From: Rhodobacterales bacterium LSUCC0387
GTDB taxonomy: Bacteria > Pseudomonadota > Alphaproteobacteria > Rhodobacterales > Rhodobacteraceae
Assembly (NCBI GenBank): GCA_015689775.1
Contig: WVSR01000001.1
Location: 310,001 to 374,000 of the forward strand
Reading direction: 5' to 3'
Length of the DNA: 64,000 nt
Below, piece by piece: positions 3-54,295 of the stretch (position 1 is the first letter of the stretch; each line of letters opens with the position of its first letter). The translations under genes and the position numbers were made by a program. A model generated the notes under the pieces. The model did not search any database and was not told the origin of the DNA. It worked only from the letters and a program-made list of their open reading frames with translations.

Positions 3-2183
3 CGTTTGGTTGATCTGGGCCGTGATGCGCAGGTCAATGCCGAACAGCGGTTGCGCAGCCTGTCGCAGATGCGCCGCTTGTTTCACGATTATCCCCGCGC
101 CCTTGCGGCAACGCGCTTGATTGCACGGCGCTGCCAGTTTCAGCTGGATCAATTGCGCTATGAATACCCATCCGAGATTTCTGATGGCGAAACCTCACAG
201 TCCCGTCTTGAGCGATTGGCGTGGAAGGGGCTTGCATGGCGCTACCCAAGGGGCATCCCTGAGCGCGCGCAGATCCTCATGAATCATGAATTGGCGTTGA
301 TTGATAAACTTGGCTATGCGCCCTATTTTTTGACAGTTCATGATATTGTCGCTTTCGCGCGTGGGCGTGGGATTTTGTGCCAAGGGCGCGGGTCGGCGGC
401 CAATTCCATCACCTGCTATGCTTTGGGCGTGACCTCTGTCTCTCCTGAAATTGGTACGATGGTGTTTGAGCGGTTTGTCTCGGAAGCCCGCGATGAGCCA
501 CCCGATATTGATGTTGATTTCGAGCATGAACGCCGCGAGGAGGTGATCCAATGGATTTACGCCCGCTATGGTCGTCACCGCGCAGGGATTTGCGCCACAG
601 TGATTCATTATCGCGGCAAGCGTGCCATTCGTGAAGTTGGCCGCGCTATGGGCTTAAGCGAAGATATCCTATCTGCGCTTTCAAGCCAGATTTGGGGGTC
701 ATGGGGGTCGGGTGAATTGCAAGACGCTCGACTGCGCGAAATCGGTCTTGATCCTGATAACCCACATTTACGGTTGGTGATGGATTTGGTGGGCCAGATC
801 ATCGGCTTCCCGCGCCATTTAAGCCAGCATGTGGGGGGATTCGTGATTACCGAAGGGCGGCTTGATGCGCTTGTGCCCATAGAAAATGCCACGATGGAGG
901 ATCGCACAATCATCGCATGGGATAAGGATGATATTGATGCCTTGGGCATTTTGAAGGTCGATGTTTTGGCCTTGGGAATGCTCAGTTGTTTGCGCAAATC
1001 CTTTGACCTTTTGCAGGGTCATTATGGGCGGAATTTTGATCTGGCCACCCTGCCCGCTGAGGATGGCCGCGTCTATGATATGCTGTGCAAGGCAGACAGT
1101 CTGGGTGTGTTTCAGGTGGAGTCGCGCGCGCAGATGAACTTTTTGCCGCGTATGCGCCCACGTTCTTTCTATGATCTGGTGATCCAAGTGGCGATTATCC
1201 GACCTGGGCCTATTCAGGGTGATATGGTGCATCCCTTCATTCGCCGCCGCAATGGGGAGGAGGCGGTCGAGTTTCCATCTGATGCGTTGGGCGCTGTGTT
1301 GCGCAAGACCTTGGGCGTGCCCTTGTTTCAAGAACAGGCAATGCAAATCGCAATTGTAGGGGCCAGTTTCACCCCGACTGAGGCCGATGCGCTGCGCCGT
1401 GCCTTGGCTACGTTCAAGAAAAAGGGCCATGTCTCGGAATTTCGGGCGCGGTTTTTGCGCGGCATGCAGAATAATGGGTATGACCCTGATTTTGCCGCGC
1501 GCTGCTTTGCACAGATCGAAGGGTTCGGCGCCTATGGTTTCCCTGAAAGCCATGCTGCGAGTTTTGCACTTTTGGTTTATGCCAGCGCGTGGATCAAATG
1601 CCATTACCCTGCCGTTTTTGCCTGTGCTTTGCTGAACAGCCAACCGATGGGGTTCTATTCCCCTGCACAGATTGTGTGTGATGCACAGGCGCATGGGGTG
1701 GAGGTGAGACCTGTTTGCGTCAATCTCAGCGCATGGGATCACACGCTAGAACCAGATGGGACGGGTGCGCTTGCGCTAAGATTGGGGCTGCGACAGATCC
1801 GAAGCTTGTCTGAGGAGGACGCGCATTGGATCATTGCCGCGCGTGGTAACGGCTATCTCAGCCCGCGTGATTTATGGCGTCGTGCTGGTATGTTGCAAAA
1901 ACCTTTGCGTGCTTTGGCCGAAGCAGATGCCTTTGCCGCGCTTGGGTTTGATCGCCGCGCGGCGCTTTGGGAATTGCGCGGGCTTGGCCCTGCACAAGAT
2001 TTGCCGCTTTTTGCCCGTGACCTTGAGGGTGAGGCGCATAATGAGGTCTCACCAAATTTGCCACAGATGACAGAAGGTGAAGCCGTGATCGAAGATTATG
2101 CGAGCCTGCAGCTGACGTTGAAACGCCACCCTGTTGCGTTTTTGCGTGGAAAATTGAGCCCCAATTGGGTGGTGCGCTTATAG
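3..2183 (+). CDS. dnaE2: Error-prone DNA polymerase DnaE2/ImuC, 5' truncated by window edge, C-terminal tail apparently missing
   Basis: DnaE2 (ImuC) is the polymerase of the SOS-induced ImuA-ImuB-DnaE2 translesion synthesis system. The reading frame is open from the first bases of the window. From the position of conserved blocks, about 370 N-terminal residues (most of the PHP domain) lie outside. The palm motif PDIDVDF near position 500 and the block LKVDVLALGML near 955 carry the catalytic aspartates, and fingers and helix-hairpin-helix regions follow. The protein stops after the block LKRHPVAFLR, which in family members is normally followed by roughly 100-150 residues with an OB-fold. Here a TAG at 2181-2183 overlaps the stop of the converging pip gene by 6 bp. 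I infer a 3' deletion, so the gene may be a truncated or dead polymerase. imuB is not next to it downstream but lies at 51145-52836. Confidence 0.9.
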   Translation, partial: RLVDLGRDAQVNAEQRLRSLSQMRRLFHDYPRALAATRLIARRCQFQLDQLRYEYPSEISDGETSQSRLERLAWKGLAWRYPRGIPERAQILMNHELALIDKLGYAPYFLTVHDIVAFARGRGILCQGRGSAANSITCYALGVTSVSPEIGTMVFERFVSEARDEPPDIDVDFEHERREEVIQWIYARYGRHRAGICATVIHYRGKRAIREVGRAMGLSEDILSALSSQIWGSWGSGELQDARLREIGLDPDNPHLRLVMDLVGQIIGFPRHLSQHVGGFVITEGRLDALVPIENATMEDRTIIAWDKDDIDALGILKVDVLALGMLSCLRKSFDLLQGHYGRNFDLATLPAEDGRVYDMLCKADSLGVFQVESRAQMNFLPRMRPRSFYDLVIQVAIIRPGPIQGDMVHPFIRRRNGEEAVEFPSDALGAVLRKTLGVPLFQEQAMQIAIVGASFTPTEADALRRALATFKKKGHVSEFRARFLRGMQNNGYDPDFAARCFAQIEGFGAYGFPESHAASFALLVYASAWIKCHYPAVFACALLNSQPMGFYSPAQIVCDAQAHGVEVRPVCVNLSAWDHTLEPDGTGALALRLGLRQIRSLSEEDAHWIIAARGNGYLSPRDLWRRAGMLQKPLRALAEADAFAALGFDRRAALWELRGLGPAQDLPLFARDLEGEAHNEVSPNLPQMTEGEAVIEDYASLQLTLKRHPVAFLRGKLSPNWVVRL

Positions 2184-3167
2184 GCCGAATTTTGTGGCGT
2201 GCTCGCCCACAGATTTCATTACCCGCACCAATTCTTTGCCGATGCCAGGCTCAGACAAAGCATGGCCCGCAGCCTTGACCATCTGCAAGTGACCCGAAGG
2301 CCAACGCGCCGCAAGACTATAGGCGGATTGAGGCGGACAAATCATGTCATAGCGCCCCTGTACAATCACGCCATGAATATGGGCGATGCGATGCATATTT
2401 TTTAAAATCTGCCCGTCTTCTTCGAGAAAGCCGCGATTGACGAAATAATGGTTTTCAAGCCGCGCGAAGGCGCGGGCGTAATCGGCGGGGCAATCACCCC
2501 CTTGTCCATCGCTTTCGATAGACGCCAAGGCGTTTTCCCATGCTGTCCAAGCACGCGCGTAACGGGTTTCGACCATCATATCGCCTGAGAAAAGGCGGCG
2601 GTTATAGGCGGCAATTAAATCGCCACGTTCATCTTCGGGGATCAGCGATACGAAGCGCTGCCATTGTTCTGGCCAGAATTGACCCGCGCCGCTGCCATAA
2701 AACCAATCCAATTCGCGTTGCATTGATAAAAACACACCGCGTAAGGCCAAATAGGCCACAGATTGCGGGTGGGTTTGCGCATAGATCAAGGCAAGGGTCG
2801 CACCCCAAGAACCGCCAAATACGGCCCATTTCTCAATGCCAAGCGTATTGCGGATGCGCTCAATATCTTCGACAAGATGCCAAGTATTGTTGCCTCGAAT
2901 GGCGGCATGGGGCCGCGAGCGGCCACAGCCGCGCTGATCAAACAGGATAATTCGCCAGACCGAAGGGTCAAAATAGCGCCGCATGGCAGGGCTGCACCCG
3001 CCGCCCGGGCCGCCATGCAGCACCGCAACGGCAGGGCCGTTTGGGTTTCCGCATTGCTCCATATAAATTTGGTGACCTTCGCCAACATCCAACATACGCT
3101 GATCGAACGGGTCGATCGGCGGGAAGAGGTGCTGCACTGCGCGCTTTTGGCCCGTGAACTTATCCAT
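2178..3167 (-). CDS. pip: Proline iminopeptidase (prolyl aminopeptidase)
   Basis: This is an alpha/beta-hydrolase of peptidase family S33 that removes N-terminal proline from peptides in the cytoplasm. The 329-residue length is normal. The oxyanion-hole motif HGGPGGG is near residue 50, DQRGCGRS near 100, and the nucleophile elbow GGSWGATLAL carries the catalytic Ser. The late Asp (GRYDMICP) and His (AAGHALSEPG) complete the triad. The start ATG at 3167 is 70 bp from the divergent ubiG start, so a shared promoter region lies between them. The stop overlaps the dnaE2 stop by 6 bp. Confidence 0.93.
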   Translation of the reverse strand: MDKFTGQKRAVQHLFPPIDPFDQRMLDVGEGHQIYMEQCGNPNGPAVAVLHGGPGGGCSPAMRRYFDPSVWRIILFDQRGCGRSRPHAAIRGNNTWHLVEDIERIRNTLGIEKWAVFGGSWGATLALIYAQTHPQSVAYLALRGVFLSMQRELDWFYGSGAGQFWPEQWQRFVSLIPEDERGDLIAAYNRRLFSGDMMVETRYARAWTAWENALASIESDGQGGDCPADYARAFARLENHYFVNRGFLEEDGQILKNMHRIAHIHGVIVQGRYDMICPPQSAYSLAARWPSGHLQMVKAAGHALSEPGIGKELVRVMKSVGEHATKFGL

Positions 3168-51144: not shown

Positions 51145-52836
51145 TTAGGTAAAGTCGCCATGGGCAAGCCAACCGCCTGTTATCGCACCCCCATGGGCAT
51201 AAAAAAGCCATAATCTGACGCCCTGCTCGGTGGTAATGCACCAATAGTCCCGCAATCCTGTGCGCCAATTGGGGTCATCAAGCCACCATTCCGGCGCGAT
51301 TCTTTCAGGCCCAATATAGGATTTCACAGTGAAATTTTGTCGCCGCCATGCAAAGCGAAATGGCGGTTCTGGGCTGTTGGGGGCATCAATAAACTCTGGT
51401 TTGAATAGGGTTAAGGGGCGCGGAAGATGCGCGCGCGGCCATAGCCCCTTAAACGGGTCTGACCATGCGGCCGTAAGAGACTTTTGCGATTTTTCGGGCA
51501 GATGGCTTTCTGCCGGATGGGGTCGGGTGATTGCTTCTAGCCCAATCCTTGTGCCAATGCTCGTGATCAGATCGTCCAAGGCGCTGCGCGCCGCATGGGC
51601 GCGCGCGGAACTATCCCCGCCTTGATGTGCGATGGCATTGCGTGCTTCGATTTGTAGCGCCTCAAGGCGGATCATATCAAAGGCTGTAGAAGGTTCTAAA
51701 TCTTTGAGGCCTTGTTCCATCTGTAATTTCAACAGGCTGTAAACGGTGCGCGCATCGGTATGGCTGCGCGCAAGCCGCAAAGTGATATGACGGCGCGCTT
51801 CGGTCATTTCGGCAAGATCAAGACGTAGGCTGCGCAGATTTCGCCCTGCTTTGTCAAGCTTTTGACACAGCGCTTCGGTTAAACGCAGGATCGCTGCATC
51901 AAGATCATCACTTGTGCCAATGGGTTCGGGAAAGCTCATGCGCACCGCGAAATAGGGCGTGCTGCGCGCGGGCGAGACAGGTTCGGCAAGACTTCCCAAA
52001 GCTTGGTCAAGGCGCTGGAGTAAAAACGGGCCAAAGCGCCGTGCCAGACCTGCGCGGGGCTGCGCAAGCAGATGGTGAATCTGATGCAGGCCAAGCCGTG
52101 CCAACCCGTCTATCGTTTCGTCCCCAAGCCGCAAAGCGGCGATAGGCAAGGGCAAAACTGCCGCGCGGGTTTCTAAAGGGGGTGCGATATGTATGGGCGC
52201 CTCTTTGCTTTGGCGGGCGGGTGGTGCAAATTTTGGGCCCATGTCACGCCTGCGCAAAGCGGCGCGTGCCCGCGTAGCGCGCGCTTCTTGGCTGATGGCA
52301 TCACCACGGGCTTGTTGCGCTCTGCCACGACTATGTCCAAAGCGGGCCAAGGCCCAAGCTGCCCCGCGCGTATCGGCAAGCCCGATTTCCGCACTAAGGC
52401 CCAATGCCGCGAGGTCGGCGCAAATGGTCTCTGCCATGGCGGTTTCCCCATCAAAAAGATGGGCGCAGCCAGAAATATCCATCACCAGACCATCTGTCCC
52501 CTCCGCCGCGATCCAAGGCGAGAATTTCTCTGCCCATCGACACAGCGCCTTGTGAAAGGCTTGTTCTTGCGCGGGGTTTTGACTGCGGGTGATCAGATTT
52601 GCACATAGCGCCATAGCGGCGCTTAACGCCTGCCCACGATAAAGCCCTGCGGCTTGTGCTTTTGGGCAGAGCGAGGAGAGAACTTGCCGATTGCGCGCTT
52701 CCGCAATCACGGCAAGTGGTTGCAGGCTCGTGCCGCGATGCAGGCGCAAGATTTGCTCCGCAGCAAGATGCGGCAAATAGATCGACAAAATGCGGCGCGT
52801 TTTGGCACGGGCCATTTGGGGGGCGGGGGCGGACAT
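51145..52836 (-). CDS. imuB: ImuB, catalytically inactive Y-family polymerase of the mutasome
   Basis: ImuB links ImuA and DnaE2 to the beta clamp in SOS mutagenesis. The 563-residue protein starts ILSIYLPHLAAEQILR, where active Y-polymerases have Asp residues, and has VMDISGCAHLFDG and LPIAALRLGDETIDGLARLG. The C-terminal part ends RDYWCITTEQGVRLWLFYA, typical for the family. So it appears full length. Unlike the usual imuA-imuB-dnaE2 run, its neighbours are dat and a transglycosylase gene; imuA is not in the window and dnaE2 is at 3-2183. A LexA-type box lies 20 bp upstream. Confidence 0.9.
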   Translation of the reverse strand: MSAPAPQMARAKTRRILSIYLPHLAAEQILRLHRGTSLQPLAVIAEARNRQVLSSLCPKAQAAGLYRGQALSAAMALCANLITRSQNPAQEQAFHKALCRWAEKFSPWIAAEGTDGLVMDISGCAHLFDGETAMAETICADLAALGLSAEIGLADTRGAAWALARFGHSRGRAQQARGDAISQEARATRARAALRRRDMGPKFAPPARQSKEAPIHIAPPLETRAAVLPLPIAALRLGDETIDGLARLGLHQIHHLLAQPRAGLARRFGPFLLQRLDQALGSLAEPVSPARSTPYFAVRMSFPEPIGTSDDLDAAILRLTEALCQKLDKAGRNLRSLRLDLAEMTEARRHITLRLARSHTDARTVYSLLKLQMEQGLKDLEPSTAFDMIRLEALQIEARNAIAHQGGDSSARAHAARSALDDLITSIGTRIGLEAITRPHPAESHLPEKSQKSLTAAWSDPFKGLWPRAHLPRPLTLFKPEFIDAPNSPEPPFRFAWRRQNFTVKSYIGPERIAPEWWLDDPNWRTGLRDYWCITTEQGVRLWLFYAHGGAITGGWLAHGDFT

Positions 52837-52855: not shown

Positions 52856-52870
52856 GTTCACATTTTGTTC
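52856..52870. promoter_or_regulatory. LexA (SOS) box GTTC-N7-GTTC
   Basis: GTTC at 52856-52859, seven bases, and GTTC at 52867-52870 match exactly the alphaproteobacterial LexA operator, a direct repeat GTTC-N7-GTTC. It lies 20 bp before the imuB ATG in the 71-bp spacer. It predicts damage-induced imuB. Confidence 0.85.
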
Positions 52871-52907: not shown

Positions 52908-54191
52908 CTATTGCAGGCGGCGTAAAAGATCGGGGCTGGCATAGCCATCAGGTAGGAGGCCATTGGCAATCTGATAGGCGCGGATTGCTGTCACGCTATT
53001 GGGGCCAATCCGCCCATCGACCCCGCCTGTATCAAACCCTGCCGCGGTGAGTAGTGTTTGCAATTCTGCACGCTCGCTCCGCGTTAGGGCGCGGTCATTG
53101 CGGGGCCATGTGGCGCGAAATCCGTTTGAACGCCCCACGATCCTATCTGACAAATGACCTAGCGCGATCACATAGCTGTCAGCGGGGTTATAGCGCTCTA
53201 GGACACCAAAATTATCATAGACCATAAGCGCCACACCATTCGCCCCAACAGGGAGCAGTAGCGCAGAGGGCCCATGATCTGGCAGGGGCGTGCCATCCGC
53301 GAGGGTGACTGCGCGGTTACGCCAAAAACTGGCACCGCGTTTTTCCTCACGACTGGCAAGGCGATAGTCAAATCCTTGTGGCAACCGCACCTCTAACGCC
53401 CAAGGTTGCCCGCGCCGCCATCCTGCTTCGCTCAGGAAATTGGCGGCTGAGGCCAAGGCATCGCGCGGGTCATCGCCCCAAATATCTGCGCGACCATCGC
53501 CCGTGTAATCGACCGCATAGGCCAGATAGCTGGTTGGCATGAATTGCGTATGCCCCATTGCCCCTGCCCATGACCCTGCAAAGGCGCGGGGGCTAACCGC
53601 CTCGATCTCTAGGATTTGCAAAGCGGCAAGAAGTTCGGCTTCGAAATAGGCGCGCCTGCGCCCTTCCCATGCCAGCGTGGCCAATGCGCGCAATGTGTCT
53701 GTGTTTCCACGGAAACTGCCATAGGATGTCTCGACCCCCCAAATGGCGACAACCACCTCTCCGGGAACGCCAAATTGAGATTCGATTCGCACCAAATCTT
53801 CGCGCCACCTTTGGTAATTGGCCCGCCCGCCTTCGATGCGTTGCGTGGAAACGGCGCTGTCGAGATAGTCCCAAATGGGGCGCACAAATTCGGATTGATT
53901 GCCATCAAGACGCACAACCTCATCTAACGGGGTCATTCGGCCAAGGGCGGCATCTACGACTGCGGGCGAAATACCTTGTGCCACGGCGCGGGATACGAAA
54001 TCTGCGCGCCATCGAGAAAAACTTTCGCGGGGTGCAGGGTTGGATTGGGTGCTGAGCGTGGCAGGTCGTGGGTAAGGCAAGGGTGAACTGCTGACCGCTA
54101 ATCCCTGAGCCAAGCTTACCTCTGCGCCAAGCGATATGAAAATGGCGGCCATAGGCGTGCACCATTGCAAGGCGTTTTGCTTCACCTGCAT
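52908..54191 (-). CDS. Lytic murein transglycosylase (MltB/SLT-type) with peptidoglycan-binding domain
   Basis: This secreted muramidase-like enzyme has about 427 residues. After a signal peptide (MQVKQNALQWCTPMAA-IFI) come the catalytic domain with VVAIWGVETSYGSFRGNTD (catalytic Glu), SWAGAMGHTQFMPTSY, and at the C-terminus a peptidoglycan-binding domain (LLTAAGFDTGGVDGRIGPNS). I prefer ATG 54191; ATG 54248 would add 19 basic residues. It lies 71 bp upstream of imuB. Confidence 0.9.
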   Translation of the reverse strand: MQVKQNALQWCTPMAAIFISLGAEVSLAQGLAVSSSPLPYPRPATLSTQSNPAPRESFSRWRADFVSRAVAQGISPAVVDAALGRMTPLDEVVRLDGNQSEFVRPIWDYLDSAVSTQRIEGGRANYQRWREDLVRIESQFGVPGEVVVAIWGVETSYGSFRGNTDTLRALATLAWEGRRRAYFEAELLAALQILEIEAVSPRAFAGSWAGAMGHTQFMPTSYLAYAVDYTGDGRADIWGDDPRDALASAANFLSEAGWRRGQPWALEVRLPQGFDYRLASREEKRGASFWRNRAVTLADGTPLPDHGPSALLLPVGANGVALMVYDNFGVLERYNPADSYVIALGHLSDRIVGRSNGFRATWPRNDRALTRSERAELQTLLTAAGFDTGGVDGRIGPNSVTAIRAYQIANGLLPDGYASPDLLRRLQ

Positions 54192-54295
54192 TTTTATTCC
54201 CCGATACAAACCAGCAAAAGCCCGCTGGCGCTTGGTTTTGCCGCTCATGGACGACCCTAGCGCGCAGAATACATTCCGCCTAGGGGCAATCGAGA

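Follow-up and report, generated by a model that had tools for sequence, protein, structure and literature searches.

The window (the whole 64,000-nt stretch of DNA analyzed here, from Rhodobacterales bacterium LSUCC0387) opens inside a dnaE2 gene, whose start lies before it (G000:C1:309274) and which in full (L003:6275-9184) encodes 969 residues. The reading frame within the window (6–2183, plus strand) ends ...LTLKRHPVAFLRGKLSPNWVVRL and is followed by TAG; the C-terminal end of the frame is also given as ...LKRHPVAFLRGKLSPNWVVRL. Judged by its sequence, the product is DnaE2, an error-prone polymerase of the C family. The part in the window alone scores 1074 bits against the DnaE2 model NF004225 (cut-off 939) and stays below the cut-offs of the DnaE1 models; the other 12 models listed for the protein all remain below theirs. 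Pfam assigns it NTPase/palm, finger and HhH domains; an OB domain is not detected. The palm motifs PDIDVDF and KVDVL are both intact, as the initial annotation had stated, and they recur in the other short forms described below (PDIDVDF in 21 of 22; K[VI]D[VI]L in all 22).

The end of the chain is what sets this protein apart. It stops 11 residues past HPVAFLR, with neither an SRDFH tail nor the OB domain that is usually part of the same DnaE2 chain and is here found in a separate gene, and it stops before any tau-binding C-terminal domain. Since the match to NF004225 covers positions 228–940 of 1047, ~107 model positions are missing, and 17 of 19 long loci fetched for comparison carry 141–166 residues more than the short form; the early stop after LKRHPVAFLR and the C-terminal deficit of more than 100 residues, both claimed in the initial annotation, are thus confirmed. 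An overlap of the dnaE2 stop with that of pip had also been reported; the two frames do overlap, by 6 nt, because their stops (TAG at 2181–2183 and, on the reverse strand, TAA at 2178–2180) are neighboring codons, so that the stop codons themselves are adjacent and do not overlap.

Table 1. Features in the window and related genes elsewhere in the same genome
Feature	Position	Strand	Remarks
dnaE2 core, last 725 of 969 residues	1–2183	+	palm, fingers, thumb, (HhH)2 and clamp motif; OB domain absent
Palm motif PDIDVDF	501–521	+	in dnaE2
Putative beta-clamp motif QDLPLF	1995–2012	+	in dnaE2; xLPLF type of PMC3919608 (accessible text)
LKRHPVAFLR	2118–2147	+	final block common to long DnaE2; split point after block
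LSP	2154–2162	+	in dnaE2; equals [LI][TS]P following HPVALLR in 22/22 short forms
TAG, stop codon of dnaE2	2181–2183	+	adjoins pip stop on reverse strand
pip (prolyl aminopeptidase)	2178–3167	-	tail-to-tail with dnaE2; outside the system
imuB	51145–52836	-	563 aa; lineage of short-DnaE2 genomes
Exact LexA-type box GTTCACATTTTGTTC	52856–52870	.	sole exact box in window; 19 nt from imuB
OB gene	G000:C2:342545-342904	-	120 aa (P0001)
imuA-like gene	G000:C1:970060-970719		219 aa; 52.9 bits

With the window protein as query, 79 of 81 genomes gave a match (for many of the matches at ~30–35% identity the length is that of a second, DnaE1-like gene). The short end was found in the 21 best-scoring genomes (69–100% identity) and in the partial G001, and the standard DnaE2 end in the next-ranked genomes, at 70% identity and below. 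The loci fetched comprised that of the window, 20 other short ones, G036 as a further short locus, and the 19 long ones. All 21 further short loci (57–98% identity) end like the window DnaE2, and three other genomes of the genus (L028, L033, L034) end at the same position, which eliminates a sequencing error past 2181 as the source of the short end. Short forms have 6–64 residues after HPVALLR (6–15 in 12 of 22), and all 20 additional long-type loci, mostly from other families, continue for 110–190 residues beyond the block. A loosened SRDF[H/R] pattern is met in 35 of 39 long DnaE2 and in none of the 22 short ones. Two of the 19 long loci, both from G012, which holds three long-type DnaE2, depart from the usual length: L063 is cut by a contig end, its OB part lying at the opposite end of the same contig, and L069 continues for 269 residues, running into a hydrolase-like frame with no SRDFH tail.

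A survey of the family (159 genomes, one per genus, with a long DnaE2 as query) gave matches in 136 genomes, with a short end in 64, a match into the OB domain in 68, both in one (G038) and pieces only in five. The same short C-terminus is therefore shared by the most similar relatives and by 64 of 159 genera, an outcome that the initial annotation had itself named as refuting its reading. In a tree of the core (61 rows, tail left out; a quick tree without bootstrap, in which the chosen outgroup is not one group and G036 sits on a long branch) the 22 short forms lie on one side of a single branch (SH-aLRT 100), so that one change suffices; their nearest relatives are the long DnaE2 of G007 and G020 (97). 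When the pip–dnaE2 junction was checked in relatives, as the initial annotation had advised, it proved common to only 4 of the 22 short loci (G000, G002, G003, G014), with no pip found beside dnaE2 in the other 18; the truncation is thus older than the junction. Between G000 and G003, two genomes of one genus, dN/dS is 0.070 for the dnaE2 core and 0.064 for the OB gene, compared with 0.152 for imuB, 0.134 for imuA and 0.034 for pip; the short DnaE2 is under purifying selection. It looks like an old, intact form of a two-part polymerase in a group of mostly marine bacteria.

The missing domain had been taken as lost; it is encoded instead by a separate gene. With the 145 C-terminal residues of the long G038 DnaE2 (OB domain and tail) as query, such a gene was matched in 21 of the 22 short-form genomes (E 4e-42 to 5e-21, 43–68% identity), located elsewhere in the genome than dnaE2. 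The best NCBIfam match of P0001, the product in the genome studied here, is the DnaE2 model itself, at positions 950–1039, directly behind the stretch matched by the core, so that the two proteins are neighboring parts of one model; Pfam assigns it an OB-fold domain. The OB proteins open with a short WPRPP-type leader before the OB domain. AlphaFold2 applied to 30 of them predicts an OB barrel (mean pLDDT 77.5, pTM 0.70), and Foldseek matches the model to OB proteins, among them aspartyl-tRNA synthetase, Stn1-Ten1 and RPA; Pol III alpha is not among the 50 matches listed. A sequence comparison ranks E. coli Pol III alpha (983–1075) first among solved chains, at a weak E of 0.021. In a tree of OB domains (54 rows, five fused rows that lack the motif having been dropped) the stand-alone and fused domains of the family group together (97) and are parted from each other weakly (75). 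Altered partner binding of the short DnaE2, also suggested in the initial annotation, is possible, as SRDFH is absent from all 22 short DnaE2 and from 80 of 80 OB proteins.

Presence of the stand-alone gene follows the form of the polymerase. With P0001 as query, the family survey found an OB gene of ~120 aa in 61 of 64 short-form genomes and in none of 67 long-only genomes (small frames in G012, G126 and G190, contig-end pieces of the fused gene, having been set aside). It was not found in short-form G047, G099 and G177, nor with the short-type piece of G133 or the short DnaE2 of G001, which is outside the 159; completeness is 99% for G047, 98% for G099, 84% for G177 and G133, and 69% for G001. 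Six genomes in neither form group also have a small OB frame. In G103 and G153 the OB gene accompanies short-type DnaE2 pieces and in G096 an N-terminal DnaE2 piece; the frame of G130 is a broken fused gene and that of G024, from coordinates only, a piece of one. The sixth, G086 (rated 100% complete), has ImuB and an OB gene (G086:C4:2083570-2083908; L240) behind an exact LexA-type box, with no DnaE2 match found, and the pairing of OB gene and DnaE2 is therefore not obligatory.

A contig scan with 17 OB proteins extended this distribution. Among the best 80 of 582 confirmed stretches, which were those used, record titles name Rhodobacteraceae, Paracoccaceae, Rhodobacterales or their genera (Ruegeria, Roseovarius, Roseivivax, Marivita, Salipiger, Mameliella, Rhodovulum, Gemmobacter, Shimia, Tropicimonas and others), and Alphaproteobacteria alone in three. 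All 12 named genomes picked for the OB gene carry a short DnaE2, and Rhodovulum visakhapatnamense (L205) has a long one as well. Outside the family an OB match was obtained in 62 of 140 genomes of the class. Three places fell within frames that are small or odd: G244:C154 covers the (HhH)2 side and is interrupted by a contig end, G233:C12 is a broken fused gene, and L237 (G218:C114) is a 129-aa OB frame that ends in RSFH and opens 54 nt from a contig end, for which a second fission and a cut gene are both conceivable. The phage records searched with the OB protein gave no match, and the annotated rows listed for plasmid records (25 of 799 records) are fused error-prone polymerases. The OB gene of L139 (G003) has ATC where relatives have ATG, which makes the choice of its start codon tentative. 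A lipoprotein-like frame lies downstream of the OB gene at L137:3204-3968, L140:3137-3757 and L143:4291-4896, and is a possible operon partner.

Control sites were sought as GTTCN7GTTC, the alphaproteobacterial LexA box. (GTTC and GAAC consensus groups are described in PMC6473078.) Of 20 loci, 19 have an exact box ahead of the OB gene, as do 79 of 80 from named records (the two sets have at least L176, L199, L208 and L211 in common), against 2 of 1212 random windows, and in 73 of the 79 the start codon follows the box by 1–5 nt. Exact boxes were likewise found at imuA in 17 of 20 loci and at imuB in 19 of 20 loci from short-form genomes, the latter in a search that spanned 350 nt before and 700 nt behind a mechanically chosen start. 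At dnaE2, 19 of 22 short loci have a box with no more than one mismatch, six of these being exact, and the version GAACAAAACGTGAAT recurs between genera. The genome studied here has exact boxes at imuA, imuB and the OB gene and a one-mismatch box at dnaE2; the latter is weak by itself, because 159 of 4400 random 75-nt windows (~3.6%) carry a one-mismatch box. The motif at the OB gene is likely to act as its own DNA-damage switch.

The imuB gene and its box lie 49 kb from dnaE2, with a lytic-transglycosylase-like gene upstream (52908–54248) and no imuA found beside imuB in the window. An ImuA-like gene (200–294 aa, with mechanical starts) was located in all 20 short genomes fetched, again at another place; its model scores are weak, and the ImuA of the genome studied here does not reach the curated cut-off of NF033429 (150), which holds for all 81 genomes searched in this way. 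Here imuA, imuB, dnaE2 and the OB gene thus occupy four separate places and not one cassette. A DnaE2 without ImuA and ImuB, considered since neither is in the neighborhood of dnaE2, was discarded when the window proved to contain imuB, and another part of the genome imuA. The ImuB of 21 short-form genomes aligns with the cassette-type ImuB in two blocks that are separated by extra residues (~47 in the genome studied here), and therefore represents a separate lineage. Dispersal of the cassette was considered as cause or consequence of the split and shows no strict link, since G007 and G040 have a long DnaE2 with imuB on another contig. In G036 (L072:4532-9983) imuB, a methyltransferase-like gene and a short dnaE2 are consecutive on one strand, and the OB gene lies on a different contig, preceded by a LexA-type box (L241).

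The genome with both versions, G038, can very probably be assigned to Dinoroseobacter shibae: its contig C4 and NC_009957.1 share the coordinate 63489 as the end of the OB match, and an imuA-imuB-dnaE2 cassette is placed on the 126-kb plasmid of D. shibae in the accessible text of PMC9426580. The chromosome-sized contig C1 of G038 carries the split set of dnaE2, OB gene, imuB and imuA. D. shibae therefore appears to carry the short, split version together with the long one, which makes the fission reading testable.

The explanation preferred here, at a probability of roughly three in four, is that dnaE2 was divided by gene fission and that its core now cooperates in trans with an OB subunit, within a mutasome that is dispersed in the genome and under SOS control. 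Gene fission as such is well supported, with the short clade, the stand-alone OB gene, their co-occurrence, the boxes and purifying selection all resting on data, and induction, physical re-association of the two parts and a role in translesion synthesis would build on it. The cut would have fallen in the linker that connects HPVALLR to the OB strands, leaving the polymerase core (PHP, palm, fingers, thumb, (HhH)2, clamp motif) as dnaE2 and giving the OB domain a ~120-aa gene of its own, with a start codon usually at most 5 nt behind a LexA-type box. Upon DNA damage, cleavage of LexA would raise imuA, imuB, dnaE2 and the OB gene together; the OB protein, held at the core directly or via ImuB/ImuA, would rejoin it non-covalently at the damaged site and bind the single-stranded template beside it, replacing the fused domain. 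Counted against this explanation are the weak separation (75) of stand-alone and fused domains in the OB tree, the short DnaE2 for which no OB gene was found (G047, G099, G177, G133, G001), the reverse case of G086, the mismatch in the dnaE2 box, the dispersed imuB of the long-form G007 and G040, the ATC in the OB gene of G003, and AlphaFold models in PMC12926913, as far as its accessible text goes, which place the ImuB contacts of DnaE2 on the PHP and (HhH)2 parts. Because short DnaE2 retains both of these parts, loss of the fused OB domain need not break the complex; the accessible text of the same paper describes ImuA, ImuB and DnaE2 as co-evolving.

Several of these observations could also be accommodated if the OB gene came from dnaE2 and is now a lone small SOS-induced single-strand-binding protein, with a core that works OB-free. 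Such an uncoupling would explain the OB gene of G086, which has no DnaE2 match, and the near-complete G047 and G099, with short DnaE2 and no OB gene found, and it comports with DnaE2 and DnaE3 sequences without an OB domain reported in the accessible text of PMC3919608. It is nevertheless considered unlikely, as an OB gene in 61 of 64 short-form against 0 of 67 long-only genomes, and the similar constraint on core and OB gene, fit a joint function better. A recent deletion at the pip junction that truncated and inactivated dnaE2, which is how the initial annotation read the short C-terminus and the touching stop codons, is highly improbable: the short form spans 64 genera and one branch of the tree, and 18 of 22 short loci have other downstream neighbors. 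The dN/dS of 0.07 and intact catalytic motifs argue against an inactive polymerase and against a newly pseudogenized gene. Still less credible is a split intein that rejoins core and OB domain into one chain, as in cyanobacterial DnaE; the accessible text of PMC3919608 offers that enzyme as a precedent for a two-gene C-family polymerase, but the short-form ends and the short OB leader leave no room for intein halves, and on these lengths the possibility was rejected.

Relative to the canonical ImuA-ImuB-DnaE2 cassette, the system described here shares the polymerase core, its palm and LPLF motifs, the presence of ImuA and ImuB in the genome, and LexA-type boxes; it differs in its separate OB gene, the absence of the SRDFH tail and the four gene places. 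The mycobacterial cassette, split into imuA'-imuB and dnaE2, is alike in that dnaE2 is apart from imuA and imuB, but there it is the cassette that is split, and a divided DnaE2 chain is not mentioned in the accessible text of PMC6511836. Cyanobacterial DnaE is a C-family polymerase in two pieces as well, but these are joined by an intein (PMC3919608, accessible text). The loss of the domain was partly foreseen in print: the accessible text of PMC3919608 treats an OB domain in the DnaE2 chain as usual and not universal, lists several DnaE2 sequences without OB domain and CTD, among which the present clade may be included, and gives SRDF[H/R] as a putative C-terminal interaction motif in ~77% of DnaE2. 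Its main text, as far as accessible, has no mention of a separate OB gene or of fission, and no published description of such a gene for DnaE2 was found in a search of the main texts of largely open-access papers.

The short gene is ordinary as a truncation and notable as a divided polymerase. If fission with action in trans is correct, a large group of bacteria encodes a DNA polymerase by two separately switched genes, and their SOS mutagenesis machinery gains a small protein that has so far had no name. A more tentative extension is that the OB protein might be a dissociable fourth subunit of the mutasome with its own SOS promoter, by which the cell could adjust how much of its DnaE2 is OB-bound and how much OB-free, and hence processivity or lesion reach, and that it might act on the long plasmid-borne DnaE2 where both forms are present. 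More generally, a relocated domain should be looked for before a short polymerase gene is called truncated, and the role of the OB domain in C-family polymerases would become testable by the removal of one gene.
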